Part shown: positions 6,660-32,417 of the stretch, one piece after another
How the letters are laid out: the number at the start of each line of letters is the position of its first letter
Position numbering within the stretch: the stretch's first letter is position 1
Assembly (NCBI RefSeq): GCF_000621545.1
Contig: NZ_JHYA01000001.1
Coordinates: 1-64,000, forward strand
Direction of reading: 5' to 3'
DNA: 64,000 nucleotides
DNA from: Anaerovibrio lipolyticus LB2005
Lineage (GTDB): Bacteria > Bacillota > Negativicutes > Selenomonadales > Selenomonadaceae
Notes under the pieces: model-generated
What the model saw: the letters and a program-made list of their open reading frames with translations, nothing else
Database searches by the model: none
What the model was told of the DNA's origin: nothing
Translations under genes and position numbers: made by a program

Positions 6660-6980
6660 ATGAAAGATATAGGCAATAAAATCAGGCAATATCGCAAAGA
6701 AAACAATCTAAGCCAGGAAGCGCTTGCTGAGAAAGTCGATGTAAATAAAAACTTTATTTACAAGTTGGAATCTGATCAAAAATCATTATCCCTGCAACTA
6801 GCTATCAAAATGGCAAATGCCCTTAATATCTCATTAGATGAATTATTTGCTGATGAGTTAACACACGAACACACCAATTATTTTTCTCTATTTGAGGATT
6901 GTAGCTATGCAGAAAAAGAGATTTTAATAAAGATTCTTCAAGAAATCAAAACTGTACTACATGGCTACACAATAAAGTAA
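6660..6980 (+). CDS. XRE-family transcriptional regulator
   Basis: A 106-residue protein. An HTH_3 domain covers residues 5-60 (IRQYRKENNLSQEALAEKVDVNKNFIYKLE), with a C-terminal oligomerisation-like helix region. A GGAGG site lies six bases before the ATG. It is divergent from the RepA-recombinase operon and shares its 240-base control region, the usual layout of a repressor governing a mobile-element operon and itself. The direct target is inferred from position. Confidence 0.9.
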   Translation: MKDIGNKIRQYRKENNLSQEALAEKVDVNKNFIYKLESDQKSLSLQLAIKMANALNISLDELFADELTHEHTNYFSLFEDCSYAEKEILIKILQEIKTVLHGYTIK

Positions 6981-6994
6981 TATAAAAAAAGAGA

Positions 6995-7049
6995 CCTGCG
7001 TAGGCTACAGCAGCACCCGCATCAGGGTGCTCGCTCTGGTCTACGCAGG
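6995..7049. terminator. Bidirectional terminator between converging genes
   Basis: CCTGCGTAG pairs with CTACGCAGG, enclosing an inner GCACCC/GGGTGC stem. A run of A lies on the left and CTTTCTT on the right, so it can stop both the XRE gene and the recombinase trio. It may also sit close to the end of the element carrying the trio. Confidence 0.8.
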
Positions 7050-7069
7050 CTTTCTTATAGGATAAAATC

Positions 7070-8629: not shown

Positions 8630-9042
8630 TACACCTCTTTAATTTGGCTATATAGATATTCTACCCTTCGGAAAGGATCTTCTATATCGCATTCTGTTGA
8701 CTCTAATACAAAATCAATCCCTATGCATGTTTCCCTAACCTTATGCTTCTTATTAAGCCGCCCCAATCTGGCAGCCCTCACATATTTTTCCTGTTGGGCC
8801 TTGGCAAACACCTCATCAGAAATAAGTCTAGGATATATACCTTCGCCAATATAGGCCCTGTTTGTGAGAATCCTGCCAATACTGCAATGCCATGAGCTAA
8901 TGCCAACAGCTTCTCCGACACAGTGCAATCCATATCCTTGAAGATAAAGCTCATACATTCTTATGACCTTGGGGCCATCAACCGGATCTATTACCAGTTC
9001 CCCATTTTTGATGCAGTAACCAAATGGTATGTGTGAAATCAT
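8629..9042 (-). CDS. Stand-alone Recombinase-domain protein without catalytic domain
   Basis: A 137-residue protein starting at the ATG that overlaps the upstream recombinase stop (ATGA). It begins directly with IPFGYCIKNGELVIDP and continues through a DGPKVIRMYELYLQGYG region to RILTNRAYIGEG, which is the Recombinase (DNA-binding) domain found in the middle of large serine recombinases. There is no resolvase catalytic domain and no zinc ribbon. The coupling on both sides shows that it is a deliberate third component rather than debris. It probably binds attachment-site DNA or modulates the two full-length partners. Confidence 0.85.
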   Translation of the reverse strand: MISHIPFGYCIKNGELVIDPVDGPKVIRMYELYLQGYGLHCVGEAVGISSWHCSIGRILTNRAYIGEGIYPRLISDEVFAKAQQEKYVRAARLGRLNKKHKVRETCIGIDFVLESTECDIEDPFRRVEYLYSQIKEV

Positions 9043-10556
9043 GCTCTCACCAGCCTTTCCCTTAATCTTAGTCCGCATTTCAGCTCAAATATGATTTCCT
9101 TTTTGGATAGCACAACTACCCTGTCTACTATTGCTGTAAAAATGTTATCTGAAAACTCTTTCTGTACACCTTTCTTATCACATATGCCGATAAGTTCCCT
9201 AAGTGCTGTTTTACGGTCCACTTTACTTCTAATGTTTTCACCCACGCGAATCTTATCCCTGGCTTTACTTATTTTTATCAGCTCTGGTAATATTACCGAA
9301 CTGCTGAGATTATGTTTTGCCTGCATCTCAAGAAGTAACGCCTCTTGGGAATTCAGTCTATCCAGTTCAGATTCATTGTTCTCGCAGTGCGGAATCTCAG
9401 TGTTACTCAAGTCACTAAGCATTGTTTTTAAAACCCTGTTCTTGATACATATCAGCTTATTTACCATGGTACAGAATGCGTCCTTCAAGGCTGCCTCTTT
9501 TATTGCCTTCATAGAGCACTTTGATTTATCCCTTATGTGCTCCGGGCAGGCCAGCAACGGATACTTAATGTCTCCAGTATGCTGGATTTTATGTCTGAGT
9601 ACACTATTACATTCTCCGCAACATACTTTGCCGGAAAAAGCATATCTTTTCTTATACTTGGTAGGGGCTTCTTTTGCCTCTTCCCGCAGTTCGGCGAGTT
9701 TCTGCAGTCTATCAAATACTTCCTGGGAAATAATTGCATCGTGATGCTTCTCACAGTAATATGCATCCACATTATTTTTGTTCTTGTGGCGTTTCCCGTC
9801 ACTGCCAATATAGGTGGACTGGAAGATTATATTTCCAGTATAAAAAATGTTGTTCTGTATCCTTTTTACTGTGGATGCGTCCCACTTTTTTCCTCTTGGG
9901 GATGGTATTGAAAGCTCATTTAACTTTTTTGCAATGGCATAACCTCCCAGTCCATCAAGTCCACATGTAAAGATTTTCTTCACTATTTCCGCCTTTTCAT
10001 TATCCAATTTAATGACACCTTCTTCATATATGTAGCCGTAAGGCGGTGAAACCATCTTGTAAGTTCCATCCTGGAATCGTTTCTGAATTCCCCACTTTAT
10101 ATTCTCTGATAACGACTTTGATTCATTTTCAGCCAATGCACTTACAACTGACATATAGAGCTCTGCATCCATATCCTTTGTATTGATATTATCCTGCTCA
10201 AATTTTACATATATGCCTTTTACAGCAAGTGTCCTGACTGTTTCAAGACAATCCAATGTATTTCTGGCAAATCTGCTGATTGACTTTGTGAGGATAAAAT
10301 CTATCTTTCCTGCTATGGCATCACTAACCAACTGCTTAAAACCATCACGTCTGTTTATGGAGCGTCCGCTGATACCATCATCAGAATACACTCCTACAAA
10401 GGACCATTCCGGGTGTGCCCTAATGTACTCCTCATAGTGCTTCTTTTGGTTATCCAGGCTGGCCAACTGATCAGCGTCTGAGGTAGAAACTCTACAGTAT
10501 GCAGCAACCTTCAGTTTATTCTCAGGTCTTTTATCAATAATTTTTATTGTAGGCAT
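9039..10556 (-). CDS. Large serine recombinase (first gene of the trio)
   Basis: A 505-residue serine recombinase starting at the ATG eight bases after GGGAGGTGG. The catalytic domain has AAYCRVSTSD with the nucleophile at about Ser24, DDGISGRS, and ISRFARNT. A Recombinase domain is followed by a zinc ribbon (CCGECNSVLR, then CPEH and KCSMK) and a coiled-coil C-terminal region. It is coupled by a four-base overlap to the Recombinase-only gene. Two divergent full-length recombinases in one operon suggest a heteromeric or sequentially acting system, as in Ccr-type elements. Confidence 0.95.
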   Translation of the reverse strand: MPTIKIIDKRPENKLKVAAYCRVSTSDADQLASLDNQKKHYEEYIRAHPEWSFVGVYSDDGISGRSINRRDGFKQLVSDAIAGKIDFILTKSISRFARNTLDCLETVRTLAVKGIYVKFEQDNINTKDMDAELYMSVVSALAENESKSLSENIKWGIQKRFQDGTYKMVSPPYGYIYEEGVIKLDNEKAEIVKKIFTCGLDGLGGYAIAKKLNELSIPSPRGKKWDASTVKRIQNNIFYTGNIIFQSTYIGSDGKRHKNKNNVDAYYCEKHHDAIISQEVFDRLQKLAELREEAKEAPTKYKKRYAFSGKVCCGECNSVLRHKIQHTGDIKYPLLACPEHIRDKSKCSMKAIKEAALKDAFCTMVNKLICIKNRVLKTMLSDLSNTEIPHCENNESELDRLNSQEALLLEMQAKHNLSSSVILPELIKISKARDKIRVGENIRSKVDRKTALRELIGICDKKGVQKEFSDNIFTAIVDRVVVLSKKEIIFELKCGLRLRERLVRA

Positions 10557-10587
10557 TGGAACCACCTCCCTTCATCAGCATGAGATA

Positions 10588-17379: not shown

Positions 17380-20202
17380 TCATATATTTACAGCTTCACG
17401 CAGCTTTTCCCACACTTTAACCATTGCATACGTATCAAGACCACAGTATTTAAGCAAATACCCACGATATTTTTCCAGTTCCTCTGGAGACATGTCAGCC
17501 ATAGCTAGAAATGCATTTGATGCTTCAGTGCCATTATGAATACCTTCAAGATTGTGATAATCCAGCGCAGGATCATCCGGAAATAGTGCTGGTAACACAA
17601 GCTTGATAGAAGAACGTCCCTGCATTTCCTTGACATAATAATGCTCATTATGAAACGGCATCTCAAGGTCTTGGATATGGTCATGGATATTCATCAAGTG
17701 TTCAGCCAAGTCAGGGAAAAGTTCCGCTAATTCCTTTACACGCCCTTGTTCGAATGATTTATGATATGCCAACGTACAACCATTCAACGTAATATCCATG
17801 CAAAGCTGCTCTGCTATCCCTCTACGTGGGTCTTCTCCAGGATATGCCAGATATTCCTTGTGTTTTAGTTCCCCTCCCTCCTGTTCAATATAGTGAAGGG
17901 AATACTGAAATACTATCTGTGCATAAGGCTTTGCATTATCATATTGTGGTACGGCCATTTGGCAAGATTCGAAATCAAGGAAATACAATGGATAGGATAA
18001 CCCCACCAAAAATTTTTGAATCTCCTCTTTTTCAATATGCGGTGCCTTTTCAAAAAGCTCGTACTCTATCTGTATTTTCTTCACTCCTGCCTTATATAGC
18101 TGGTTGAAATCGATTATTCCCTGATGATAATATTGGATTTTTTTCTTCCATTGTGGTGAGTTACCCGCGACATCAAATACATTAGGTTGTGGCAGGTGTC
18201 CGGTACAGTATTTCCAACAGTCGCACATTACACCATCTCTTTTGCAATGTTCATCAATGATATCTGGAGATTCGTCCTTTTGCTTCATGTACTCAGTAAA
18301 TTTACCTAAATTAGCCTCCACCTCATCATGCTTGGCCTTTGCTTGTTCTGTAAAATCCACCACTGTGAAAAGATCCTGCAAATCAAGTTCTCCATGCCGC
18401 ACATATTTATTGTTCAAATGCATTAAATAGACTCGATTCACCTCAAAACCACACTTTTCCACCACAAAGCACTGGAAAGCTACATCATCATAATAATGAT
18501 CCTTGATTTTCGCGGTACTCTTTACCTCATAAATATCCACTTTTTTCCCGCCAAGATGATGTAATATATCAACGCTACAGAAAAGATTGTCTACCGCAAA
18601 GGACGCCTCTGCAATGTACTCTTGCCCATTCTCCAAAAGTTCATTTGTCCGTGTAACCATGCTACCGAGATTGTTCTTATTAAAGGGCACAACAACACAA
18701 CCATCAAATCGCTTTTGAGCCAGTATCCCCACCTCATTGCCAACAGCAATACGTTCTTCAGAGGCCGGCGACTCATCGATAATCTCAGGCTTATTAGTTT
18801 TTAACCACAATGCCTTAGGGCACTGTGTCGCCATTACATACTTCGACTTGGAACAAATCAATGTAGATACCTCTGTAATCATATCGCCATATCCCAAATC
18901 TTTCATTTTTTGAATGAACTTTAAAAAATTTTTCTTAGTATTAGCTGCACCCCATTCTCTGCAAATAACTACTGTAGTATTATCTCTCAGTACTATAGGA
19001 TAATCTGTTAAAAATCTTGATTTATCCTTGTCTGGTACTTCAGAAAGATTCTTTATCACGCCGTATGACCCCTGCAAATCCTTAGGAAATACTCTGCACA
19101 GTCCTTCATAATTAATATCAGGATGTTTTTCAACATAAAGGCCCACAACAGATAATACAATTCTTCCTAATGCGGTTTGTTCACCATTAAATAGGTATCT
19201 TGAAGTTTTAGATTTGCCAGTTGGTTTATTATCATTATTTTTTTCTTTTTTAAATGATGTGCCATATTTTAGCGGCTTTGGTAGTTCATCTATGAATGAG
19301 CTGCTTACGTTGTTTACCATCGCCAGCTTATTAAATTGTTGCATATTTTCTTGTCCATACCTTGTATAAAACTGCTGACGCACATAATTTATTACATCAG
19401 GATTTTCACCAATCAGATAATTTGAGTTTCCACTTTTCGGGACAAGGAAATAATTTAACGGGTCACAAAAACGTAGAAAATGTGCCTTGACAATATTCTT
19501 TTCTTCATCAGTCCAAATATCTGGGAGACGTCGTACATGATCTTCATTTTCTATCCAATCCGCCACCACCCCTCTAGGAAATAATTTATCACTTAAAGCT
19601 TCTGGCAAATAGAAATCATCACTTCTATGGTTATTTTCCTTTAAACTAGCAATATGTGCCAAATACCAACCTTTCCCATTTAAAATCCCCGTTTCTCTAG
19701 GATGTCCAAGAAATTGATTTTTGTTGGCTATCAACGCTTCTTCACTTTTTTTGCCATTATCATAGTGCATTGGATACATATTATCATTTAATAATTTAGC
19801 AAATTCCTCTGCTGTGGGAACAATGCCCTTGTGAGCCATATTATAAATCTCATGTACCTCAAAATTGCTGGCAAACACGTAGGAGCAACCGTCAGCCATA
19901 ACAGTTTTTGCAGCGCGCCTATTTTTATACGGTCTTAGCCCGCGCTGTTCCCAATTCTTATTATTTCCGCCTTCATATTTTCTTATCAAAAATACCGCAT
20001 CCGACCGGTCAATATACTCAACCAACATTTTGTGCCAAGCAATAGCGTATTCGCTGTCTATTAGTGTAGGTTTAATACATTTCTCATACAATTCAGTAAC
20101 GGTTTTTACTTCTTCATATTCTGGTAATGAAATTTCAAAATCAATTATCTTCTTTTCATTATGCCTTGAAAAATAATCTTGAATTCCTGTAAAAATTGCC
20201 AT
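17380..20202 (-). CDS. Fusion of unknown N-terminus, Cas4-like nuclease and DUF2779 RNase H-like domain
   Basis: A 940-residue protein with three parts. Residues 1-430 have no recognised family. Residues 440-690 resemble Cas4/DUF83 PD-(D/E)XK nucleases: CSKSKYVMATQCPKALWLKTNKP at the start, KKVDIYEVKST as the D-ExK core, and a distal Cys cluster (HCKRDGVMCDCWKYC) that could bind an Fe-S cluster. The C-terminal 190 residues match DUF2779, an RNase H-like fold with exonuclease-type motifs: FLDFES, AYHKSFEQGR and YCGLDTYAM. The start follows AGGAGG, which lies inside the upstream leader gene. A nucleic-acid-degrading effector is the natural reading. Confidence 0.85.
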   Translation of the reverse strand: MAIFTGIQDYFSRHNEKKIIDFEISLPEYEEVKTVTELYEKCIKPTLIDSEYAIAWHKMLVEYIDRSDAVFLIRKYEGGNNKNWEQRGLRPYKNRRAAKTVMADGCSYVFASNFEVHEIYNMAHKGIVPTAEEFAKLLNDNMYPMHYDNGKKSEEALIANKNQFLGHPRETGILNGKGWYLAHIASLKENNHRSDDFYLPEALSDKLFPRGVVADWIENEDHVRRLPDIWTDEEKNIVKAHFLRFCDPLNYFLVPKSGNSNYLIGENPDVINYVRQQFYTRYGQENMQQFNKLAMVNNVSSSFIDELPKPLKYGTSFKKEKNNDNKPTGKSKTSRYLFNGEQTALGRIVLSVVGLYVEKHPDINYEGLCRVFPKDLQGSYGVIKNLSEVPDKDKSRFLTDYPIVLRDNTTVVICREWGAANTKKNFLKFIQKMKDLGYGDMITEVSTLICSKSKYVMATQCPKALWLKTNKPEIIDESPASEERIAVGNEVGILAQKRFDGCVVVPFNKNNLGSMVTRTNELLENGQEYIAEASFAVDNLFCSVDILHHLGGKKVDIYEVKSTAKIKDHYYDDVAFQCFVVEKCGFEVNRVYLMHLNNKYVRHGELDLQDLFTVVDFTEQAKAKHDEVEANLGKFTEYMKQKDESPDIIDEHCKRDGVMCDCWKYCTGHLPQPNVFDVAGNSPQWKKKIQYYHQGIIDFNQLYKAGVKKIQIEYELFEKAPHIEKEEIQKFLVGLSYPLYFLDFESCQMAVPQYDNAKPYAQIVFQYSLHYIEQEGGELKHKEYLAYPGEDPRRGIAEQLCMDITLNGCTLAYHKSFEQGRVKELAELFPDLAEHLMNIHDHIQDLEMPFHNEHYYVKEMQGRSSIKLVLPALFPDDPALDYHNLEGIHNGTEASNAFLAMADMSPEELEKYRGYLLKYCGLDTYAMVKVWEKLREAVNI

Positions 20203-21107: not shown

Positions 21108-23159
21108 TTATTCTGCATATACATCAATATAAGCCTGCTGATACTCTTTTGGATAGTGAACTTTATAGTACACCATACGATATAAAAGAGCTGTATAGTC
21201 AATGGCCTGGGCTCTGGAAACCAAATATCTGATCTTTTGGCAGGAGTCAATATACCAATCTGGTATATTATGTTCTTTTAGAATTGCCACCATATCAGGT
21301 TTTATGCCACGTCCCTTGCGTACAGCTTCCATTATTTTAACTGCCGTCATTGGTTCAATTCCCATCCCAATAAGGTATGTCATAATATCATCACGTGTAG
21401 CTATAACCTCTTTGAAGGTACACACCCCATCCTTAAGCAGAAGTTCGGTATTATTATTCCATGCCCCGGAATCAAATGATGCCAATGCAATGATTTTTAC
21501 AAGCTCATTCATACTGCTTGGCTTTACCATGGACATAATCTGGTAAAACAGCTTGCTTAGTTGAATTCCCATTTGCCCAGATGTTCCCTTATTCTCTTTC
21601 ATGACATCACCAAATGATTCTGGCTTCAAGGAACATAAACATGATAGCGTTTCAGCATCGCTAAGGGATATATCTCTAATCCGGTAATTAGTACTGTCCT
21701 CCATTTTTTTCAGAAAATCCATCTCCCTAAGTGGCAGCATATCAAGCTTTATCAGATCCCCTAATAGTGCGCGATAATCAAAATAAGTTGTTAACCACTG
21801 ATCATCAGTATCTTCGGATATATACTGAGTGGGCGTAAAACAATGAACATCCATATCCTGGGGAATCAGCATCAATGCGGCTGGATGAACGCCTGTATCT
21901 GACGGGATATTTATTATCCCCGGTTTAAAGACGTTATTTTCCCCCAATATTTCCTTTATATATGAACGAAGCATCGGGATCTGCTGAGCAGAATAACAAA
22001 TGTCAATATCCGGTATTTTTCTGCCATCAAAGCCAAGAAAAACTGCATAAGACATGTCCCAGCCGTCTTTTATCAGCGGTTCACCGCAAATAGGACAATT
22101 TTGATCAGGTAAATCGGCTCCAAATACGTATTCATTATCAGTAGCAAATTCACTGTGTTTACATTTTGGGCAGCGCCAATGGGGCGGAAGAGGATTAATA
22201 TCCGTAATCCCCAACAGATTTGCAACCAATGAGGAACCTACGGAACCGCGGGAGGTAGTACTATAACCATTCCCATGGGTTTTATCTGCAAGCTTCCGGG
22301 AAATTAAATACAGCGACGAATAACCATTCCTGGTGATAATTGACAGTTCCTTATCAAGTCTTTCTTTCACCACCGCAGGGAGATTTTGACCATATATCCT
22401 GTGCGCTGCTTCGTATGAAAGATTTTTTACAGTTTCTTCCGCCTCAGGCAAAACAGGCAGATGGATTCCTTCCGGTATTGGTCTTAGTCGGTCAATCATA
22501 TCTGAAATAAGCTGCGGGTTATTGATCACAACATCATAAGCTGTTTTTTCTCCAAGATAACTGAAGGATTTCAACATTTCATCTGTTGTTTGTAAAACTT
22601 CTATACCTTGGTCAGCAGCCACTACGGACTTATTAATTTTTGCCGCTAACTCCACAAGTTTTATATTGGTGTCACACAAATCATCATCTGGCTGAATTTC
22701 CAAGTAATCATAAAAGGCGGCAATTTCCAAAAGCCTTTCTTCACTTTTATGTGAGGCTATGGCCTGTATAAGCTGACCATCAAGCCCTGCAGCCCCTACG
22801 AGTAATCCTTCACGGTGTTGTTCCAAAATTTCTTTTGATATACTATGAGCCTCGTTTCCTGGCTTGGTATGTAATAATGTAACCAAGTTATACAGATTTT
22901 GAAGACCAATCTTATTTTTGGCCAAAACAATCACGTGATATACAGATAATAAATCTGCATCTTCCGTCGACAATAAAATTTCCATGCCGTAGATTATTTT
23001 GATGTCAAGATTATCCCCCTCAACAATTTGCATAGCCTCCGGAAACGCCTTTACTGAACAGATATCAGTGATTGCCACAGCTTTCCGACCTCTCCGGGCG
23101 GCTGTACTAATATATTCTTTCACGGACATTTCATTAGCTATTTTACTTGATAATTTCAT
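21108..23159 (-). CDS. Shortened, degenerate PolC-type DNA polymerase III alpha homologue
   Basis: A 683-residue relative of PolC (about 1,440 residues in Bacillota). The PHP domain (1-200) is recognisable by KAVAITDICSVKAFPEA and IIYGMEI, but the HxH motif reads KLSS and TDH is TDI. The 3'-5' exonuclease and OB regions are missing. Kept are SRGSVGSSLVA, the zinc cysteines (330, 333, 355, 358), PDIDICYS (Asp384/386), KLDML (Asp473), RDDIMTYL and RKGRG. A palm/finger segment is deleted, so KRTTGQHPGG reads PSDTGVHPAA. Polymerase activity is therefore doubtful. It is divergent from the vWA/MoxR operon. Confidence 0.85.
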   Translation of the reverse strand: MKLSSKIANEMSVKEYISTAARRGRKAVAITDICSVKAFPEAMQIVEGDNLDIKIIYGMEILLSTEDADLLSVYHVIVLAKNKIGLQNLYNLVTLLHTKPGNEAHSISKEILEQHREGLLVGAAGLDGQLIQAIASHKSEERLLEIAAFYDYLEIQPDDDLCDTNIKLVELAAKINKSVVAADQGIEVLQTTDEMLKSFSYLGEKTAYDVVINNPQLISDMIDRLRPIPEGIHLPVLPEAEETVKNLSYEAAHRIYGQNLPAVVKERLDKELSIITRNGYSSLYLISRKLADKTHGNGYSTTSRGSVGSSLVANLLGITDINPLPPHWRCPKCKHSEFATDNEYVFGADLPDQNCPICGEPLIKDGWDMSYAVFLGFDGRKIPDIDICYSAQQIPMLRSYIKEILGENNVFKPGIINIPSDTGVHPAALMLIPQDMDVHCFTPTQYISEDTDDQWLTTYFDYRALLGDLIKLDMLPLREMDFLKKMEDSTNYRIRDISLSDAETLSCLCSLKPESFGDVMKENKGTSGQMGIQLSKLFYQIMSMVKPSSMNELVKIIALASFDSGAWNNNTELLLKDGVCTFKEVIATRDDIMTYLIGMGIEPMTAVKIMEAVRKGRGIKPDMVAILKEHNIPDWYIDSCQKIRYLVSRAQAIDYTALLYRMVYYKVHYPKEYQQAYIDVYAE

Positions 23160-23261: not shown

Positions 23262-24437
23262 TTGACAGAAGGTAACAATCTGACAGCTACAGAAAAATTA
23301 AGAAAAGCCCGAATCAGAATAATGAACAAACAGCCTTTTTTCGCTTCCCTTATTATGCTCCTTACACCAGTTGAAGATGATTCTATAGGAACAGCAGCGA
23401 CTGATTCAAAAAACCTATTCTATGCTCCTTCTTATATAGAAAAATTGTCTATTGAGGAAGTTATTTTTGTGTATCTGCATGAGATTCTCCACTGTGCCTT
23501 AGGACATATCTGGAGACAAAAAGATAAGGATCATAGACTTTGGAATATTGCCACTGATTATGCAATTAATGGTATGTTACATAACGATATAAAACTAAAT
23601 CATTTTCTCAAAATGCCACCAAGTCTGCTATATAAAGAAACATATTATGGTATGTCAGCGGAAGAAATATATGATTCCCTTAAGTCAGATATTGCTAGAG
23701 CTTTCGTTAGCGTTAGCGTTGGCAATGGTGATGATGGTGATGATGAGCCTCAAAACCATGTTTTATGGAAAAATGCTGATAAAAACGAACGGATAAACTG
23801 GCAATACAATACCAAGATTGCAATTAAAAATGCAGAAAGATATGGTAAAGCACCTTCATATCTTACAGAAATAATTAAGCGGTTAAAACCACCACAAAAG
23901 GATTGGCGAACTCTATTGAATGAATTTGTCCAAGAGGAAATAAATGATTTTTCACTTATGCCGCCGGACAACCGTTTTGATGGGGATTTTTTCATTTTTT
24001 CCTTTTCCGATACAACAGAAGTGGTAAAAGACTTGCTGTTCTTTGTTGATACATCTGGTTCCATGCGAATAAATGAATTAGAGGCTTGTTATTCGGAAAT
24101 AAACGGTGCCCTCCAGCAATTCAATAGGCAACTACAGGGTAAACTTGTTTTTTTTGATGCAGTTGTCCATGAACCATTATACGATTTTGACGACATCAAA
24201 GATATCAGATCTGTATGTCCTATAGGCAGGGGCGGTACCTGTTTTTATGCTATATTTGATTTTTTAAAAGAATATAAGAATGCTCATAATCCCATTGCGG
24301 GTGTCATTATTTTAACTGATGGACAATGTGACTACGATGACATCGATGCACCAGATTTTCCTGTTCTTTGGGTATTTACTACCCATGACAACAATCCACC
24401 CTTTGGCTTATCTACTACCATCGAAGTCAGCCCATAA
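23262..24437 (+). CDS. DUF2201-type metallopeptidase-vWA protein
   Basis: A 391-residue protein starting at TTG, six bases after GGAGGTG. The N-terminal half is a predicted metallopeptidase-like domain with HEILH (73-77) and ALGH following. The C-terminal half is a vWA-like domain with a MIDAS motif DTSGS (about residue 265) and later TDGQCD. Such proteins are paired with MoxR AAA ATPases, as here: the ATPase gene starts 51 bases downstream. The pair probably forms a chaperone or assembly machine akin to RavA-ViaA. The target is unknown. Confidence 0.9.
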   Translation: MTEGNNLTATEKLRKARIRIMNKQPFFASLIMLLTPVEDDSIGTAATDSKNLFYAPSYIEKLSIEEVIFVYLHEILHCALGHIWRQKDKDHRLWNIATDYAINGMLHNDIKLNHFLKMPPSLLYKETYYGMSAEEIYDSLKSDIARAFVSVSVGNGDDGDDEPQNHVLWKNADKNERINWQYNTKIAIKNAERYGKAPSYLTEIIKRLKPPQKDWRTLLNEFVQEEINDFSLMPPDNRFDGDFFIFSFSDTTEVVKDLLFFVDTSGSMRINELEACYSEINGALQQFNRQLQGKLVFFDAVVHEPLYDFDDIKDIRSVCPIGRGGTCFYAIFDFLKEYKNAHNPIAGVIILTDGQCDYDDIDAPDFPVLWVFTTHDNNPPFGLSTTIEVSP

Positions 24438-24488
24438 CAGTTATCCTAATATGACGCATATTAATTTTGTACGAGGGAGGAACATATA

Positions 24489-25604
24489 ATGTCTTATATG
24501 GATATGATTAGTAATGAAAATTATTCACAAATTTCCTGTAATAAATTTATCAATATCATGTCTGCCCTGTATTCCGAAGGAGATTTTTCCAAACAACCAA
24601 CCAAAATGTTATGGGGCCAGCCAGGTGTTGGTAAATCCCAGGCAGTACAACAATTTGCCAACATACTGTCAGAAAAAACCGGTAAAAAAACTAATGTAAA
24701 AACTGTTTCCTTACTGCTGATGAATCCTATTGACCTTAGAGGTATTCCAGCCAAATCGAAAAATGAACGGAACGAAGATGTGGCCAAATGGTTATCCCCG
24801 GATATATTCAAATTGGATCCCAGTGATGATGTTATCAATATCTTATTTTTGGACGAAATATCAGCGGCTCCACCATCTGTTCAGGCTGCGGCATATCAAA
24901 TATGCCTTGACAAACGCATCGGCGAGCATGTTCTCCCGACCAATACTATAGTAATATGTGCCGGCAACAGGGTTTCAGACAAAGCTGTGGCATTTAAAAT
25001 GCCTAAGCCCCTGTCCAATCGTCTTACTCATTTTGAAATAATTGCTGATTTAGATTCATGGCGTTCATGGGCTTACCAACACAATATCAATGACTCAATC
25101 ATTGCGTTTATTACATGGCGACCAGATTACCTTAATAAATTTGACCCCTCAAACGATGATGTGGCTTTTCCTACTCCCCGTTCCTGGGAATTAGTCAACA
25201 CTTATATGCAATTTGGCTTTGAGGAAATGTTTGAATGTATAGCTGGAACCGTCGGACTGGCAACAGCCATTGAATTAAAATCATTTATTGATCTTTCCGT
25301 AACACTACCTACTTTTAGTGATATTATTGCCAACAAAGCCGAATTACCAGCTAATAATGATCCTGCTGTAATGTATGCTATTTCTTCAATGATTACTTCA
25401 AATGTAGTGCAAAATGGCTCTACGCTTAAACTGAAAGAAAAGAATAATCTGTTTAAATATATTGGCTCCTTTAAGCATGATGAATACATTCTCCTTACAT
25501 TGCAAGATATTATAAAAAATTGCCCTGAATTTAATAAATATCTTTTAAAAAACAAAGATACCATCAAATTTATTAAGCAATTTCGCAATGATTTAACTAA
25601 TTAA
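24489..25604 (+). CDS. MoxR-like AAA+ ATPase
   Basis: A 371-residue ATPase. Walker A is GQPGVGKS (43-50), Walker B is ILFLDEISAA (about residue 117), and the sensor region VICAGN is followed by SNRLTHFEI. Between the motifs is LLMNPIDLRGIP, typical of the MoxR/DUF5-type group that accompanies metallopeptidase-vWA proteins. GGGAGG precedes the ATG. It is the middle gene of a three-gene plus-strand operon with the vWA protein and a 369-residue protein. Confidence 0.9.
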   Translation: MSYMDMISNENYSQISCNKFINIMSALYSEGDFSKQPTKMLWGQPGVGKSQAVQQFANILSEKTGKKTNVKTVSLLLMNPIDLRGIPAKSKNERNEDVAKWLSPDIFKLDPSDDVINILFLDEISAAPPSVQAAAYQICLDKRIGEHVLPTNTIVICAGNRVSDKAVAFKMPKPLSNRLTHFEIIADLDSWRSWAYQHNINDSIIAFITWRPDYLNKFDPSNDDVAFPTPRSWELVNTYMQFGFEEMFECIAGTVGLATAIELKSFIDLSVTLPTFSDIIANKAELPANNDPAVMYAISSMITSNVVQNGSTLKLKEKNNLFKYIGSFKHDEYILLTLQDIIKNCPEFNKYLLKNKDTIKFIKQFRNDLTN

Positions 25605-25647: not shown

Positions 25648-26757
25648 ATGGATACAAATATTTCTGCAGAAAATTTAATTTTAGATCACATGGCACTTAA
25701 TACCATATATATCATCAGCAAAGAAGCATTGGCAAAATTCCCAGATAAATCTATAATTATCGGCGTGGACTACAAAATGGAATTTTTAACAGGGACTGAA
25801 GATTATGATTTAGTATGCTGTTATAAATTCCAAAGATATGATTATGTATATTATATTTTTTTAAATCTTACAGGTTGGAGACACCTCCTTATAATTAACG
25901 AACCAATTAACGAAATTGGCCCCGCAAAAACATATCACAATCCTAATATTTGTAGCAAAAAAGCTGTTGAGGAAGCAAAAGAATTACCCCGTGTTTTTTT
26001 TAATCACTTTCACCTATACTATGATATAGTCAACGATAAAATTCACTGTGAATATAATATTAACAGCTATATGTATAGAAATGAAATAAACGCTTTATTT
26101 CATTCTCTACTTACTTTTCTTGCACTTAACCCGTCAGAGCATCCAGATGTTTTACAATTTTTGCAAAATAATATTGTTGATAGATACATAAAAAAAAGAG
26201 AAAGCATTCTATTTACCTTTAGCAAAGACAGAACGACTGTTAGCCATTTTACCTATATTGATTTTTATAATGAATCAGCTAAACATATATTAGTTGCAGC
26301 CGTATATATTGATCAAACTGATCAAAAATGCTATTTTTTGGGTGGGCATAAAGCAAGGTGTATTGATGATTCATTGAGGTTAAGCAATAATAATAAATAC
26401 TACATTGACAATCAAAACATGCCCAATAGGAAATATTATGATTTGTCAAAAATGAATGTTGATGATAATGAATTTAGTTATTTTATCGAAAATTTTTACC
26501 CACATAAAGCCTCAATCGCCAAAATAGACTATTACTATGATAGTGGCTTATTAATTAGGTCAACTGATGATCGTATTAAAATAATTTTTAATACCTACAA
26601 AGAAAAGGAAGATGGTATTTTGTTCCTTTTCAAGCGTAATATAGTAATCGATGAGAAATTACAACTAAAATTTAAAAAATTACCAAAAAAAGCCAAACGC
26701 CTTGATACTGAACACTATCGAAAAGTTATTGATCGTTACTTAGCGACAATAATATAA
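25648..26757 (+). CDS. Hypothetical protein of the MoxR operon
   Basis: A 369-residue, Tyr- and Asn-rich, very AT-rich gene with GGGAGTG upstream. No membrane helices or catalytic motifs are evident; alternating short beta-like segments suggest an all-beta or alpha/beta fold. It follows the MoxR ATPase by 43 bases and overlaps the converging minus-strand gene by 22 bases. It may be the client or specificity factor of the MoxR-vWA machine. The family is not recognised. Confidence 0.75.
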   Translation: MDTNISAENLILDHMALNTIYIISKEALAKFPDKSIIIGVDYKMEFLTGTEDYDLVCCYKFQRYDYVYYIFLNLTGWRHLLIINEPINEIGPAKTYHNPNICSKKAVEEAKELPRVFFNHFHLYYDIVNDKIHCEYNINSYMYRNEINALFHSLLTFLALNPSEHPDVLQFLQNNIVDRYIKKRESILFTFSKDRTTVSHFTYIDFYNESAKHILVAAVYIDQTDQKCYFLGGHKARCIDDSLRLSNNNKYYIDNQNMPNRKYYDLSKMNVDDNEFSYFIENFYPHKASIAKIDYYYDSGLLIRSTDDRIKIIFNTYKEKEDGILFLFKRNIVIDEKLQLKFKKLPKKAKRLDTEHYRKVIDRYLATII

Positions 26758-27347
26758 CCCCGTTTTTTAAAACAATTCATAACCACCCTTGCCCATTTAG
26801 AATAATCCTGTCCCCAGGCCCCCTTCATATTGCCATCAGCAAGTTCTTTTAATATTTCCTTCCGTGACTGGAAAAAGCTGGCAAATTCAGGATAATCACT
26901 GCCATATTTTTTCAAAAATTCTTTAATGTTTGCTTTTGCAAATATTTCCATTGCAAAGATCAAGCCCTCCAAATCTTCATAACCATGTCCCATAAAATCC
27001 CTGTCCATACAGCCAGCAAATATTTTGCTAAGCTGATCCAGAAGGCCAGGGATTTTTTTCACCCCATTATACTTTGTAAGGGCATGAACAATAATTCCGG
27101 TTATCATATATGTTGGTTCATATATGTACATAACACGGGCATCATCCGGCATATCAGAAATATCTTCCATGTGCCAAAGAAGAATTTTGGAATTATGCTC
27201 AGTTCTCTTCGCTGCTTTTAAAACGGTTGAAATAAAATTGACTGACTCCGCCTCGGAAACCTTATTCTCAATATATTCCTCAAAATTTTCTTTCACAATT
27301 TCCAAAAATTTATCCGGTTTGTTCTCATTAATAAAATTAGTGTTCAT
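26736..27347 (-). CDS. Helical hypothetical protein of the CbbX/MotA-like operon
   Basis: A 203-residue protein that starts inside the end of the MotA-like gene (11-base overlap) behind GGGGGG, so it is translationally coupled. It is predicted largely helical, with segments such as FLEIVKENFEEYIENKV and a C-terminal KWARVVMNCFKKRGY. No family is recognised. As the last gene of a three-gene operon with a CbbX-type ATPase and a four-helix membrane protein, it may be a cytoplasmic subunit of the complex. Confidence 0.75.
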   Translation of the reverse strand: MNTNFINENKPDKFLEIVKENFEEYIENKVSEAESVNFISTVLKAAKRTEHNSKILLWHMEDISDMPDDARVMYIYEPTYMITGIIVHALTKYNGVKKIPGLLDQLSKIFAGCMDRDFMGHGYEDLEGLIFAMEIFAKANIKEFLKKYGSDYPEFASFFQSRKEILKELADGNMKGAWGQDYSKWARVVMNCFKKRGYIIVAK

Positions 27348-28224
27348 AATTATCCCCCCTATAATTTTCCCAAAACCTTAAATCAGCAGACCAGTTAGGA
27401 TCAAAGAAAACATCCAAAACCTTGACATCCTTGTACTCGTCCAAAAATGGCTGTCTGAGCAGTTCATCCTGTTCCTCAGAATTTAAATAAACAAGCTGGC
27501 TTCGTAATATTTCAGTTGGAGCAACACCTTCCTGTATCAAAACATGCCCTCTCATTACCTGCTGCTGAATATTTTTTTCATTGTCCCAGTAGCTGTGTAA
27601 TCTGCCAGGCAACAAAATACCGATAATAATGCTTAAAAGCAGACTCAATACAGTCAGCAGGCACACACATATAATGCTTTCTGGTGGATTATTCAAACCA
27701 ATAATTGTGCGAATAGCAAGATCCAGCCCTCCAGCTATTCCCCCAAGCAGTCCTATTACCAATATACTCATTCCCAACTGCCTCAAGATATTAATTTTTT
27801 CATAAATTTTCTGACGGCCGATTGAACCAGCACGCTGCAACGCTCCTTTAATATCCTCCGGTTTATAGCCATTGAGAACCATTTTTTTGCCCATGTGATA
27901 TACAAAATTCGGATAATTTTTATCCAAGGAAAATTCAACAGCCGAAGTGATTCCCCTCCTTCTGAGAACCCAACATGCCGTAAGAAATAATCTTGCCAAA
28001 AATAGAGATTCGCCCTGCATTCTGTTTTGAAGTGGTAGATCACTGGCAAAAACTTCTTTCCACTTGGCGTTAAAGGATACTGCTGAAAAAACGACAAAGC
28101 CTATGCCAAGATATGTGATTAATACAGGCCAAAGGTTATCCAAATACAGCGTAGCTGTTGCTCCACCGATAAACAGGATAACTCCGAGGATAATATACCA
28201 TTCTGTTTCCATATTTCTTTTCAT
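27337..28224 (-). CDS. MotA/TolQ/ExbB-like four-helix membrane protein
   Basis: A 295-residue membrane protein. The ATG at 28224 is chosen for AGGAAAGGG upstream. Two N-terminal helices (WYIILGVILFIGGATATLY; VLITYLGIGFVVFSAVSF) are followed by a long cytoplasmic loop, two more helices (ILVIGLLGGIAGGLDLAI; ICVCLLTVLSLLLSIIIGIL), then a tail with MRGHVLIQEGVAPTEILRSQL. The 2+2 topology and this tail resemble MotA. No MotB partner is visible, unlike Zorya. The gene follows the CbbX-type ATPase gene in the same operon. The family call is moderate: topology is clear, sequence identity is low. Confidence 0.7.
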   Translation of the reverse strand: MKRNMETEWYIILGVILFIGGATATLYLDNLWPVLITYLGIGFVVFSAVSFNAKWKEVFASDLPLQNRMQGESLFLARLFLTACWVLRRRGITSAVEFSLDKNYPNFVYHMGKKMVLNGYKPEDIKGALQRAGSIGRQKIYEKINILRQLGMSILVIGLLGGIAGGLDLAIRTIIGLNNPPESIICVCLLTVLSLLLSIIIGILLPGRLHSYWDNEKNIQQQVMRGHVLIQEGVAPTEILRSQLVYLNSEEQDELLRQPFLDEYKDVKVLDVFFDPNWSADLRFWENYRGDNYEH

Positions 28225-28248
28225 AGCAATTCCCTTTCCTTTCATTTA

Positions 28249-30375
28249 CTACATCATGCAAAAACCAATTTGATGTTTTTCAGCTGGCTCCGAACCAAAA
28301 AATTCGTTTTTAAAATCATTAATAGTAAGATTTTTAATCATTTGTCTGTCAATATTTTCAGCGGAATAAGAATTGACCAGATATTCAGCGTGAGAAAGTA
28401 CAGCAGCCTCCAACACATTGCGAACAAATCGGCCATTGCCAAAATCCTTTTTATCAGAAGCTTTTTGGAACAGTTCACGGCAATAATCCATGCTTTCCTC
28501 ATCCAGCCTGTATCCCTGCTCTTCTGCCATGCACTCAAGAATTCTGCACAACTCATGTGCATCATAGTCAGAAAAGTCCAGATGAAACGCTATACGGCTT
28601 CTTAGGCCAACATTACGTTCAATAAATGATTTCATTGGCTGTGGGTATCCTGCAAAAATAACCAGCACATTTTCCCGGCGATTTTCCATTTCCTGCACAA
28701 TGGTATTTATAGCTTCATCCCCATATAGTCCCTGTCGTTCATCCACCAGAGAATATGCTTCATCAATAAATAGTATTCCCCCTTCAGCTTCATCAAATTT
28801 TTTGATTACAATAGGAGCTGTGTGCCCTACAAACTTGCCTATCAGATCAGCCCTTCCACACTCCACGAAAGCGCCGGTGGAAAGAATATTACGCTCCTTC
28901 AGTATGCCGGCCAGCAGACGTGCCACTGTGGTTTTTGCAGTACCCGGATTACCGGTAAAAACCATGTGCAGGGCAGGCTTTTTAAGTTCTATTCCTTTTT
29001 TCTTTTGGATCGCCTGTATCTGATGTACAGCCAATATGCGATCAACTAATTTTTTTACCTCCTTTAAGCCAATTAATTGCTGCAACTGTTCATAGGAATT
29101 ATTTTCTACTTTTTCCTCTATTGTTTTATCAGCCGCCTTGATTCTGCGATAAGCAGGGTAATGCTCCCATCTTATTAACTCATCAGCAGCTTTTTCGTAG
29201 GCTTCCCAGGCTTCTGTTACAGAATACGTTTTTCCGGCTGTAAAGACGTTTTTCAGTTCCTTGGCCGTGAATTTCCGTTGTCCACGACTAATGGCCAAAT
29301 AATTTATATACTTTTTCGCTTGTTTTTCCCCTCCAACCCCTTCACTTATAGTGACAAAATCAATCGCACCATTTAAGGATTCAATAAAACATCTGGTAGC
29401 ATCAAGTTCTTTCTTGGCTGGTACAACCAGAATAAACAGCGTATTATTCCTATGCTGCTTTATTTCAGATACCAGATTATCAATATAATCTTCATGAAAT
29501 GCATGTTTAAAATGTCCGCCTTTTCCTCTTTTTGTATCCATCCCCTCTGACATATACAGTACCATGGTTGATTGCTGGGCCAAGGAAACGATAGAATTCC
29601 AAAAAGAAATTTTACTGTCGTGAGGTACAAAATCATAAAAAGAAAAGATCCTTTTACTTTTAAGCCGATTCCTTGCATAAAGAGCAGATACCAAAAGGTC
29701 AATCATTTCCTGGGCTGTTTCTTGTCTTTCAGCCTGTATTATATAGTGAACAGGATGGCCCCAAAATTCATTGCTGTTTTGAGCATCGTATATCCTGTCC
29801 AGCTCATCCCGTAAACTTTGATGGGCCATAATATTTTCCGCCTGATGTATTGCATTATTGAGTTTTTTGGGAATGGCAGAAACTATATTTTCTTCAATAC
29901 GATATTGCTTATGAACCGTCGAGTTTTTATTTTCAAAGTACTCCATGGAAAAATAATTCAAAATGGACCAGTGTGCTCTGATCAAATCTTCTTTATATCC
30001 CATTTTCACACACTCACAAAAATCCGAGCAGGTAATTTCTCTCAAATTTGTAATAAAGATACTTCTGATTCCGGAAATTTTATTATCAAAAATCATTTTT
30101 ATCCGTTCTTCTACTTTGCTGAAATCCTCAAATTTCTGTTCCCGGTTGTGGGCCAATATCACACTGATCTTTTTAGCGTTATTATCTATATGATATACAA
30201 AGATACTCTGCCCTTCTTCGGCAATTTCCTTCCCCATGTCCATGTTAATATCCCTGAAAGCATCCCGATTATCTTTCCTGGATGCAGTTGATGCAGACTG
30301 TTTTGCTTCTGATTCCTCACTCACAGGAATATCCGTAATTTCTTCATACTGTAAGTCAAAGTGGTATAGCAGCAT
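28249..30375 (-). CDS. CbbX/SpoVK-type AAA+ ATPase with degenerate N-terminal module
   Basis: A 708-residue protein. The C-terminal domain (about 425-700) is a CbbX/SpoVK AAA module: LIGLKEVKKLV, Walker A GNPGTAKT (475-482), Walker B ILFIDEAYSL (Asp538, Glu539), FAGYPQPMKSFIERNVGLRSR with arginine-finger-like residues, and NGRFVRN. The first 420 residues include an alpha/beta module (around HPVHYIIQAERQETAQEMI) that looks like a P-loop-less copy, as in other tandem members. GAGGAGG precedes the ATG. It heads the operon with the MotA-like protein and is expressed from a promoter that mirrors the one for the HsdM-HsdS fusion. Confidence 0.88.
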   Translation of the reverse strand: MLLYHFDLQYEEITDIPVSEESEAKQSASTASRKDNRDAFRDINMDMGKEIAEEGQSIFVYHIDNNAKKISVILAHNREQKFEDFSKVEERIKMIFDNKISGIRSIFITNLREITCSDFCECVKMGYKEDLIRAHWSILNYFSMEYFENKNSTVHKQYRIEENIVSAIPKKLNNAIHQAENIMAHQSLRDELDRIYDAQNSNEFWGHPVHYIIQAERQETAQEMIDLLVSALYARNRLKSKRIFSFYDFVPHDSKISFWNSIVSLAQQSTMVLYMSEGMDTKRGKGGHFKHAFHEDYIDNLVSEIKQHRNNTLFILVVPAKKELDATRCFIESLNGAIDFVTISEGVGGEKQAKKYINYLAISRGQRKFTAKELKNVFTAGKTYSVTEAWEAYEKAADELIRWEHYPAYRRIKAADKTIEEKVENNSYEQLQQLIGLKEVKKLVDRILAVHQIQAIQKKKGIELKKPALHMVFTGNPGTAKTTVARLLAGILKERNILSTGAFVECGRADLIGKFVGHTAPIVIKKFDEAEGGILFIDEAYSLVDERQGLYGDEAINTIVQEMENRRENVLVIFAGYPQPMKSFIERNVGLRSRIAFHLDFSDYDAHELCRILECMAEEQGYRLDEESMDYCRELFQKASDKKDFGNGRFVRNVLEAAVLSHAEYLVNSYSAENIDRQMIKNLTINDFKNEFFGSEPAEKHQIGFCMM

Positions 30376-30409
30376 TTTTCTTCCTCCTCAAATTTTGTCT
30401 CTGTTAATC

Positions 30410-30429
30410 TTTGGTTTAATTAAACCAAA
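30410..30429. promoter_or_regulatory. Perfect 20-base palindrome, probable operator
   Basis: TTTGGTTTAATTAAACCAAA overlaps the -10 box of the minus-strand promoter. A close copy lies at 30600-30619 over the plus-strand promoter, implying one dimeric regulator for both directions. Confidence 0.7.
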
Positions 30430-30447
30430 ACATTTTACATCTGTCAA
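30419..30447 (-). promoter_or_regulatory. Promoter of the CbbX/MotA-like operon
   Basis: On the minus strand TTGACA (30442-30447) and TTTAAT (30419-30424) are 17 bases apart, about 45 bases from the start codon. The spacer ends TTTTGG, as in the opposing promoter. Confidence 0.75.
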
Positions 30448-30581
30448 GATTTAAAAAAATCATTTTATACATTTTCTTTTGAGTGCCATAAACCATACCG
30501 CATGTAACAGTTAAACAAGCCTGTAAATGCCGTTTTATTGGCATGTGAAAAAAGTATTTTAAAATGCACGATAAATTTTTC

Positions 30582-30610
30582 TTGACAAAGATGTGTTTTT
30601 TTGGTTTATT
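30582..30610 (+). promoter_or_regulatory. Promoter of the HsdM-HsdS fusion gene
   Basis: TTGACA (30582-30587) and TTTATT (30605-30610) are 17 bases apart, 25 bases before the start codon. Confidence 0.75.
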
Positions 30611-30619
30611 TAAACTATA
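30600..30619. promoter_or_regulatory. Imperfect copy of the operator palindrome
   Basis: TTTGGTTTATTTAAACTATA matches the perfect site at 30410-30429 at 16 of 20 positions and also overlaps a -10 box. Its right half is degraded, so it may be the weaker site. Confidence 0.6.
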
Positions 30620-30635
30620 GATTGGAGGAACGGAT

Positions 30636-32417
30636 ATGGAGACTAAAATAATCGATAAATTACTTTCCCTGGGATTGCGCCGTATTTGCAGGATTTTAAA
30701 TGACTGTTTACGGTCTGACTATGCAGATACAAGGCCAGAAGCAATGTTTGCCTTAGCGGCGTCAGCATATTCCAAAAAGCTTGAAGCATTAAATCTGCTT
30801 TCACCTGATACATTTGAAAAACGCATTTCCGATGAAGATACCAGATCATACATGAGAGAATTCTCTCAGCAGCATGAGGGTATCATTGAAGAAATAATAC
30901 AAAAATTAAGCATTGAAGAATTACAGGCTGCACTTTTGTTTGGAAATAATGACTCTGTTATGAGTACATTGAAAACGCTCCCAGCCAGCGCAGCCCGTCT
31001 TTCCCTTAAATTATTGGATATACAGGACGGTGACAGTATATTAAATATTGCTTCCGGAAGAGGAATTTTCTTGCGGGAAGCTATTTTTCAAAATTCAAAT
31101 ATTAAATCATTTGCCCTTGATAGCAACCGCTCCATGTGTCGCATATTAAATATCCTTTCAGCCTGCATGGGATGGAACATCAATGTACAGGGGGGTGATA
31201 TTTTCTCCAGCGATTTAAAATCAATAAAAGCCAATAAGCTCTTTATTGATGCACCGCTAGAAGAAAAAGAGATGGACTGGGAAAAATTCCATAACGAAAT
31301 CGAAAATGATCCTTCGTTCAAGGATTTGGACTTTAATAACATACCTACGAAGCTGACAACCATGTGGTTTAAGATTATTTCGGCCCTTCGCTTTCAAGCT
31401 AAAAAAGCACGAGCCGTTGCAATTATTCGCGACAACTCGGATTTAATTGGTCCCGATACGGAAATCCTACGCAAAAAGCTAATAAACGAAGGACGTATTG
31501 AAGCAGTTATTTCATTACCGGAAAAATTGGATTATAACCGCTCCCCCATTTATCTTGTAGTGTTTAGTACCAATAATTCTTCCGTTCGTTTGGTGGATGC
31601 CCATGAAATATATACTTCAGCGGATGAGGAACCACCTCAGAAAAAGGTATCCATCGGACTTCATCCCCTTCAGACGTTAAAGGAGAAGGATATCGAGGAA
31701 ATCTTGCAGGAATTAAAGACAGACAGTTCCATCAGCCGCTCTTTTTCCAATAAGGAATTGGCTCTCCGCAATTACAAACTGTTGCCAGATGTGGAATACT
31801 GGAACAATGATGACTACTGCAGAAGCCTTGCCAATTCGACAATGCCGGCTATAAAGGAAATCTGTCAGATATATCGCGGCGACATTACTGCCAATGCCAA
31901 GAATTTAAAAAATTCCTTCAGTGAAGCTCCTACGGATTTCCAGTATCTTCAGCTAAAGGATGTACAGGAAGGTATTATTAAAACACCGCTGCAATATCTG
32001 AAAAGCATAGATGAAAAGCAGTATCCTTTCTGTGTAGAAAAAGATATTTTGGTCATGGGCAGAAATGCCCCAATAAGAATAGGATTTTTACAAGTACCCG
32101 AAAACACAAAGGTATTATTGAGCGGTAATATATATGCCCTACAAACAAATGAGGAAATATATGACCCTGTTTACCTGATGTTATATTTGCAAAGTGATGA
32201 TGGCATGAGGCAACTTTCTCATATTCTTAGAGGCAGGACTGCAATGCAGACCATCGCCTTAAGGGATTTGGAGCAGGTTAAGATACCACTTATACCATTG
32301 GAAGAACAAAAGGCTGTTGTGGCAAAATTCTGGGAGCTGCAGGAAAATCTCCAACAACTTCTCGACAAAACAAACCAGATAAGAGCTTCCATCCGTCAGT
32401 TGGTAACAGTTGTTTAG
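30636..32417 (+). CDS. Degenerate HsdM-type methyltransferase fused to an HsdS-like domain
   Basis: A 593-residue fusion. Residues 1-330 follow type I N6-adenine methyltransferases: a helical N-terminus, the SAM region around SILNIASGRGIFLREAI (about 133-150), and the conserved LRKKLINEGRIEAVISLPEKL. The catalytic NPPF motif is replaced by DAPL (KLFIDAPLEEKE), and the DPxCGSG SAM loop reads NIASGRG, so methylation is unlikely. Residues 410-590 look like one HsdS target-recognition half: YLQLKDVQEG, LVMGRNAPIRIGF, and IPLIPLEEQKAVVAKFWELQ leading into a coiled coil. It probably recognises DNA without modifying it. No HsdR is present. Confidence 0.85.
   Translation: METKIIDKLLSLGLRRICRILNDCLRSDYADTRPEAMFALAASAYSKKLEALNLLSPDTFEKRISDEDTRSYMREFSQQHEGIIEEIIQKLSIEELQAALLFGNNDSVMSTLKTLPASAARLSLKLLDIQDGDSILNIASGRGIFLREAIFQNSNIKSFALDSNRSMCRILNILSACMGWNINVQGGDIFSSDLKSIKANKLFIDAPLEEKEMDWEKFHNEIENDPSFKDLDFNNIPTKLTTMWFKIISALRFQAKKARAVAIIRDNSDLIGPDTEILRKKLINEGRIEAVISLPEKLDYNRSPIYLVVFSTNNSSVRLVDAHEIYTSADEEPPQKKVSIGLHPLQTLKEKDIEEILQELKTDSSISRSFSNKELALRNYKLLPDVEYWNNDDYCRSLANSTMPAIKEICQIYRGDITANAKNLKNSFSEAPTDFQYLQLKDVQEGIIKTPLQYLKSIDEKQYPFCVEKDILVMGRNAPIRIGFLQVPENTKVLLSGNIYALQTNEEIYDPVYLMLYLQSDDGMRQLSHILRGRTAMQTIALRDLEQVKIPLIPLEEQKAVVAKFWELQENLQQLLDKTNQIRASIRQLVTVV

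Follow-up and report, generated by a model that had tools for sequence, protein, structure and literature searches.

A 593-residue protein encoded in the window, that is, the whole 64,000-nucleotide stretch of Anaerovibrio lipolyticus LB2005 DNA analysed here, joins an HsdM-like methylase domain to one half of an HsdS specificity subunit. Judging from its sequence and that of its relatives, it is probably a non-catalytic M-half-S homodimer that regulates its own promoter and, in the window, a divergent AAA operon; a type I-like half-enzyme (HsdM plus half HsdS) would thus have turned into a transcription regulator. The original prediction had spoken of a DNA-recognition module freed from methylation, and for the family this gains support from an altered motif IV, a recognition half that is better conserved than the methylase half, and an inverted word, GGTT-N6-AACC, in about half of the promoters.

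Architecture and motifs of the fusion

The fusion gene is an open reading frame on the forward strand (30636-32417) with no internal stop and with a ribosome-binding site GGAGG at 30624-30628, intact as had been claimed. Pfam places N6_Mtase (PF02384) on residues 116-384 (30981-31787, forward strand; E 2.2e-10) and one unit of Methylase_S on residues 406-570 (31851-32345, forward strand; E 4.5e-6), both above the gathering score. The latter, also delimited by fold, is a single fused half-S and not the two target-recognition domains of an HsdS. In an AlphaFold model built from a 13-row alignment (pLDDT 80.7, pTM 0.68), residues 1-391 resemble type I HsdM, with the PacII M subunit 7vs4 (Z 29.3, rmsd 3.3, 362 aligned) and, level with it, 3lkd (Z 29.0) as the top-ranked solved folds, and residues 400-593 resemble 8vsr, a lone half-S chain titled Prx with Esub1 (Z 20.3, rmsd 2.6, 181 aligned). 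The Pfam domains and the fold matches of both parts therefore identify the protein as an M-half-S fusion, and the retention of the HsdM fold and of an HsdS half is borne out. No helix-turn-helix family appears among its matches at E 0.1, and the HsdM alignment starts from residue 1. The protein matches positions 1-573 of the 574 of the M-half-S family profile (E 6.6e-211, the window sequence being one of the eight profile rows), and keeps 28 of the 31 columns that are conserved in at least 80% of the other family members, the three changes being mild swaps; its branch in the family tree is long (1.77).

As far as the sequence tells, one catalytic motif, motif IV, is clearly altered in the window protein, and the cofactor site is not. 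Motif IV (residues 205-208; 31248-31259, forward strand) reads DAPL in place of NPPF, as first noticed, with the second proline retained, so that the protein has the N6_Mtase fold and domain of an HsdM without its NPP[FY]. The SAM loop was wrongly described as lost: motif I, NIASGRG (31044-31064, forward strand), retains its G-x-G (G141-x-G143), motif II still has its acid (ALDS) and motif III its GD, and only the leading acid of motif I has become N. The wider claim that the catalytic motifs are lost accordingly holds for motif IV and fails for the SAM-binding motifs. Across the family G141 is found in 36 of 41 fusions and the motif II acid in 35 of 41.

These 41 distinct fusions are what was left of 42 classed fusions plus the window after duplicates had been dropped (26 HsdMs from the same loci gave 24), and three genes (L044, L045 and L109|4209) lie outside the set because they did not pass its coverage rule. 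The alignment of homologues shows that the motif change is conserved as a family norm, exact NPP[FY] occurring in one of the 41 fusions (L043) against all 24 distinct HsdMs. The second proline of motif IV is kept in 38 of 41 fusions. At the first position 17 have N and 10 have D, and only six have Pro at the second; L040-L042 and L100-L105 align poorly in these motif columns. The common form is N-x-P-[F/L/M]; DPPF and EPPY occur once each, HPPF twice but in a shaky region of the alignment, and forms such as RVPS and complete loss of the motif are also present. The common form resembles the motif of rRNA dimethyladenosine transferases, and enzymes of this sort (3fyd, 3grr, RsmA-type 8x3w and ErmC' 1qam) are indeed among the matches of the family profile, at about profile positions 122-217. 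Because of these matches, and of the N-x-P-F/Y found in rRNA adenine methylases, a changed motif IV cannot safely be equated with a dead enzyme in the family. Changed chemistry, and not loss, is possible for the family at large on this sequence evidence but unlikely for the DAPL of the window.

The two halves of the fusion differ in conservation. Among 32 main-clade fusions the mean pairwise identity is 0.342 in the recognition part versus 0.262 in the methylase part, and in 455 of 496 pairs it is the recognition part that shows the higher identity. For the fusions of 12 operons the values are 0.385 and 0.284, with 0.254 for the HsdM and 0.188 for the HsdS of the same operons, these last being measured on whole proteins and not on recognition domains alone. 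A recognition half frozen in this way fits a protein whose target may have been one unchanging word over a long period. The identity of the recognition part within the main clade is the same in fusions with the promoter word described below (0.356) and without it (0.352); how well this part is conserved is thus not linked to the presence of the site.

An inverted word in the promoters of the family

The first search for homologues covered 120 relatives and gave matches in 29 of the 120 genomes, many of them to the S part alone; the seven homologues aligned over their full length are 23-29% identical to the window protein. Further members came from running the family profile on three sets of genomes, one from the family (189), one from the phylum (398) and one from the class (300). 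Twelve loci came from the named genome collection, including those of Selenomonas, Spirochaetaceae, Ruminiclostridium, Peptostreptococcus, Globicatella, Dolosicoccus, Fibrobacter and Kiritimatiellae.

GGTT-N6-AACC occurs within 300 bp upstream of 20 of the 41 fusions (25 sites), a count that is not blind, since this broad form was picked after palindromes had been seen in the homologues. The same word precedes three of 513 other ORFs of at least 150 aa in the same loci, and all three are sites of a fusion counted from the divergent ORF. Each of the other spacers (0-5 and 7-12) is found before at most one of the 41 fusions, and 200 shuffles of the same upstream stretches put the word before 0.26 of them on average and before 2 at most. 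Clustering the fusions at 50% identity leaves 32 clusters, and the word is present in 14 of them (Fisher p about 1e-16 against 3/513). In the 631 kb of homologue loci, 24 of 40 sites fall inside the 300-bp upstream stretches. Canonical hsdM genes have the word in none of 12 upstream stretches, these being the usable ORFs from 22 loci tried and including one (L068) that lies within a fusion operon. The exact sequence GGTTTANNTAAACC is present in five of the 41 upstream stretches of 300 bp and in none of 60 shuffles. A general palindrome scan of the homologue upstream stretches found similar words in several of them, yet mostly no better than in shuffles: over 200 bp only two of the 40 scored stretches reached 0.02 of shuffles, and the window did no better than its shuffles, its perfect site being 223 bp upstream and so beyond the limit of that scan.

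The position of the word with respect to the promoter is also recurrent. In 13 of the 20 site-bearing promoters a site ends 0-2 bp before the TTGACA-like hexamer of a sigma-70-like promoter, and in L098 it overlaps the -10; the Globicatella fusion is, with that of Subdoligranulum, one whose promoter holds strong sites. In the 300 bp before the other 21 fusions there is no perfect site; among them are the core-locus orphans L041 and L042 and eight of the nine members of a second clade, in which the word precedes a single gene. Other palindromes occur in the second-clade set, GGTAT-N4-ATACC being found in L084 and L106. Nine fusion-like genes of plasmids, unused in motif finding, served as an independent set, into which L178-L181 were taken by tblastn match and annotation without a profile score. 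The fusion of a Subdoligranulum plasmid, the sole one of the nine with a main-clade score (E 1.5e-144), has two perfect copies of the word, one ending just before TTGACA and the other lying after TATAAT; for the remaining eight genes, second-clade-like where scored, the word is in none of nine upstream stretches. Viral contigs were also scanned starting from the motif (94 stretches, 80 loci); no fusion gene was met at E 0.001, an uninformative result, since very few such genes seem to be present in these contigs. With island or family proteins as queries, the viral contigs gave only the window's own contig or a twin, one short partial match, or nothing, and phage records gave no match or partial ones.

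The usual gene order is the fusion, often a conserved gene of about 180 aa, then hsdM, hsdS and hsdR. A same-strand hsdM-like gene lies at most 2.5 kb downstream of 23 of the 41 fusions, while four reach the contig end and 14, including the window, are without one; an hsdR-like gene is found within 9 kb of 21 of 41. The 180-aa gene directly follows the fusion in 10 of the 12 named loci, and of the eight genomes among 300 of the class that have a relative of it, seven also have a fusion at E 1e-50. It has no match at E 1 in the window and in 18 other loci. Its protein had no Foldseek match at E 0.001, the best Z of its fold search, 7.3, was not above background, and a link of this gene to DUF2325 was not supported. 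ORF clustering over the 20 site-bearing loci places the family that contains the fusion (together with HsdM and HsdS) in 20 of 20, and the next two, the 180-aa partner and HsdR, in 12 of 20 each. The word is retained by the fusions of the window and of L100-L103, where the stretches examined show no hsd genes and no 180-aa gene.

The intergenic region shared with the AAA operon

In the window the fusion gene is divergent from an AAA ATPase gene (28249-30375, reverse strand; C-terminal half SpoVK/CbbX-like), which is followed in its operon by a gene for a MotA-like membrane protein of 302 aa (27337-28245, reverse strand) and, overlapping that gene, one for a 203-aa protein (26736-27347, reverse strand) with no family above the cut-off. 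The 260 bp between the fusion and AAA genes hold a mirrored promoter-like pair, whose left arm (30406-30449) and right arm (30580-30623) are complementary at 33 of 44 positions, against a maximum of 29 in 500 dinucleotide shuffles. The fusion gene has a promoter-like TTGACA-17-TTTATT at 30582-30610 (forward strand) and the AAA operon a TTGACA-17-TTTAAT at 30419-30447 (reverse strand). A perfect palindrome of the form GGTT-N6-AACC, GGTTTAATTAAACC, lies over the -10 of the AAA-side promoter (30413-30426), and an imperfect copy with one mismatch, GGTTTATTTAAACT, over the -10 of the fusion-gene promoter (30603-30616). It is thus the perfect copy on the AAA side of the shared region that places the window among the fusions preceded by the word. 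The pattern GGTTTAWTTAAAC is found at one further place in the genome, inside a glycosyltransferase-like ORF.

The original prediction had suggested that the protein might be the sensor of the island. This is borne out only in part: the mirrored promoter-operator shared with the AAA operon speaks for such a role, whereas the six loci found through the MotA-like protein speak against it, none of them carrying the fusion gene (the AAA gene is present in three, and the other three are short contigs). Given also the hsdM-like gene that follows 23 of 41 fusions, the fusion is not a fixed part of an AAA/MotA-like island, and that idea is rejected. A similar long mirrored promoter is absent from the four MotA-like loci L132, L134, L136 and L137, and a scan of the nine further proteins of the island (17.4-30.4 kb) showed no HsdS or HsdR beside the fusion. 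The genome does have canonical HsdMs elsewhere, its other N6_Mtase genes lying outside the window. Homologues with an intact NPPF in the same context, which the original prediction had named as evidence against it, were not met with: none of the 14 compared homologue loci has another island gene. The proposed control of the AAA operon by the fusion looks, from these gene orders, like a local pairing.

Candidate functions and known relatives

In the scheme that we consider probable, two copies of the fusion would pair through their C-terminal helices to form an M2S-like clamp whose two recognition halves are the same, as suggested by the architecture of the protein and by engineered and natural half-S enzymes. 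GGTT-N6-AACC, with its 4 bp, 6-bp gap and inverted 4 bp, has the shape of a type I target with equal halves, and an equal-halved word should, by analogy, be the target of a half-S homodimer. The clamp would read this bipartite inverted word; the word itself stands in the promoters, and its reader would be the fusion. With motif IV altered, the fusion is most likely non-methylating, and since the cofactor site seems to be retained, SAM may still modulate binding. Where the word abuts the -35, as it mostly does, and the fusion heads a type I operon, as it often does, binding would amount to autoregulation of restriction. In the window, with no type I operon adjoining, the word over each -10 would put the fusion gene and the operon for the AAA, MotA-like and 203-aa proteins under the same site; the sites are read directly from the DNA, and shared control would be their effect. 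Since the -10 is overlapped or the -35 touched by the sites, repression is more probable than activation as the sign of this control.

A more elaborate version of this scheme, to which we give a rather low probability, is that the non-catalytic copy of the type I methylase clamp sits as a guard on GGTT-N6-AACC in its own promoter until phage anti-restriction removes it, whereupon the restriction operon, or here the AAA operon, would be switched on. The clamp could be removed by DNA-mimic proteins such as Ocr or ArdA, or by destruction of SAM. If this were true, restriction would sense anti-restriction through a decoy of itself.

The simpler reading, a non-catalytic regulator of its own promoter, has to be weighed against the idea that the fusion is an accessory subunit of type I enzymes, which pairs with HsdM or HsdS and alters specificity or activity while some other regulator binds the word. 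The word could indeed be bound by another regulator encoded elsewhere, and the hsdM-like gene on the same strand after 23 of 41 fusions, the hsdR-like gene within 9 kb in 21, the 180-aa gene directly after 10 of 12, the retained HsdM and half-S folds, and the canonical HsdMs elsewhere in the genome would all suit a subunit. We nevertheless hold it to be unlikely: the word is kept in the window and in L100-L103, where no hsd gene or 180-aa partner is in view, no gene family other than that of the fusion is common to all 20 site-bearing loci, and the recognition part is frozen instead of diversified. Somewhat less likely still is that the fusion, for all its unusual motif IV, is a working methyltransferase, which methylates GGTT-N6-AACC and so marks its own promoter. 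The window protein, with D-A-P-L, lacks the Asn, the first Pro and the aromatic residue, and RVPS and full loss occur in the family, even though the N-x-P-[F/M/L] of the family is close to the form of rRNA dimethyladenosine transferases, to which the family profile also matches, the SAM motifs are retained, and there are adenines in both halves of the word.

We regard it as quite improbable that the gene is a decaying type I leftover without present function. Its long branch, its orphan position in the island and the even greater degeneracy of the orphans L040-L042 are what decay would produce, but an intact reading frame with a ribosome-binding site, a promoter-like stretch and an operator-like palindrome is not, nor is a protein in which three of 31 conserved columns have changed, and these by mild swaps.

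The preferred reading, a regulator derived from a type I half-enzyme, has precedents for its parts in the literature. An engineered M-half-S fusion of S. aureus CC398-1 dimerises, is active and restricts together with HsdR (PMC6158711), and the natural half-S enzyme M.NgoAV reads the inverted bipartite GCA(N8)TGC (PMC9577141). Both have the same kind of architecture as the window fusion, but both methylate, whereas the window fusion has an altered motif IV and its word lies in promoters. Regulatory type II methyltransferases, M.SsoII, M.Ecl18kI and M.EcoRII, repress by binding an operator in their own system (PMC12707154, PMC3978073, PMC6100179). The type II regulators use an added N-terminal helix-turn-helix part, and M.SsoII also methylates; the window fusion is unlike this type in having no helix-turn-helix among its matches and in that the part proposed to read DNA is its type I recognition domain. 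Methylase-derived regulators are thus known from type II systems, and what would be new here, on the evidence of sequence, is the type I recognition domain as the candidate reader.

The regulators of type I operons met with in the literature searched are of other kinds. RptR, a 9-kDa helical protein with the 6-bp site TAGCTA, is encoded at the head of hsd operons, where it binds promoter palindromes, and also before an AAA-ATPase gene pair (PMC12255303). The fusion, with a methylase fold over its 593 aa and a different word, does not fit this type, a small helical homodimer with TAGCTA sites. In Mycoplasma gallisepticum the hsd locus begins with a C-family gene, apparently its repressor (PMC12707154). 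Unlike the fusion, neither RptR nor the C-protein is a methylase relative. In the PacII-type M1M2S non-canonical type I methylases, which supplied the top-ranked solved fold for the fusion, two unlike M subunits work in one system, and both retain NPPF/NPPY and are catalytic (PMC9613975). The NCBI annotation of Sulfuricurvum shows the same gene order, with M/S before hsdM and hsdS, and the label 'type I restriction-modification system subunit M/S' stands on some fusions, for example a gene of a Geminocystis plasmid; this label denotes a modification subunit and gives no regulatory role. No paper on an M-S fusion as a regulator was found by title or abstract in the literature searched, and the same literature yielded few regulators of type I restriction.

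If the proposed role is true, many type I operons would begin with their own regulator, which is annotated as a DNA methylase and whose target would be readable from sequence alone. A type I recognition domain would then work as a stand-alone transcription factor, and the fixed word would explain why an apparently dead methylase has been retained.

Divergent fusions and a small partner protein

Among the fusions of an HsdM-like methyltransferase with a single HsdS half, the most degenerate are those of loci L041 (9285-10940) and L042 (9671-11425), in which both the SAM loop (motif I) and the catalytic NPPF/NPPY (motif IV) are gone. These two fusions occupy a common chromosomal locus, adjoining sbcD-like and addB-like genes and a gene for a 263-aa protein, and are possibly a fixed housekeeping descendant. 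Two members of the second clade, L084 and L106, have in the 300-bp stretch preceding the fusion gene, near the gene start, a different palindrome, GGTAT-N4-ATACC, which is perhaps another fixed word.

A family of proteins of approximately 180 aa (L138, 10779-11339, and its relatives) is usually encoded directly 3′ of the fusion gene, and in L039 5′ of it. The family shares GPxPHS and LKITKT-like motifs, and its predicted alpha/beta core does not clearly resemble that of any known protein; searches of Pfam and NCBIfam with the L138 protein gave no match.

The window island and its surroundings

The viral-collection contig IMGVR_UViG_2556921664_000001 (L032 and L111) contains both the fusion and the AAA genes at 100% identity, and probably represents the same genome as that of the window or a sister of it.

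The island encodes further proteins. A 683-aa PolC-like protein (21108-23159, minus strand) has PHP and alpha NTPase/finger parts and is much shorter than PolC; it scores 656.6 bits with the NCBIfam PolC model, below that model's cut-off of 873. A DUF2201 metallopeptidase/VWA-like protein is paired with a MoxR-like ATPase (23262-25604, plus strand), and a 940-aa DUF2779 protein (17380-20202, minus strand) gives a weak Cas4-like match (E 0.001); a DUF2779-like protein is also found near the related AAA locus L134.

On the left side (3094-10565, minus strand), several ORFs appear serine-recombinase-like, and phage-like genes are seen from about 33.5 kb onward, both as judged by eye. About 9 kb to the right of the window (L170, 8824-11592, minus strand), a 922-aa single-chain protein comprises an N6_Mtase that retains NPPF and, by eye, a specificity-like end, and adjoins a helicase-like 865-aa ORF.

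Loci related through the MotA-like protein

Four loci found via the MotA-like protein (L132, L134, L136, and L137) encode big proteins of no known family, two of which give weak Sel1-like matches. The AAA gene is present in L132, L134, and L137, and L134 additionally encodes a WYL regulator. These four loci are a candidate for a separate system in its own right.
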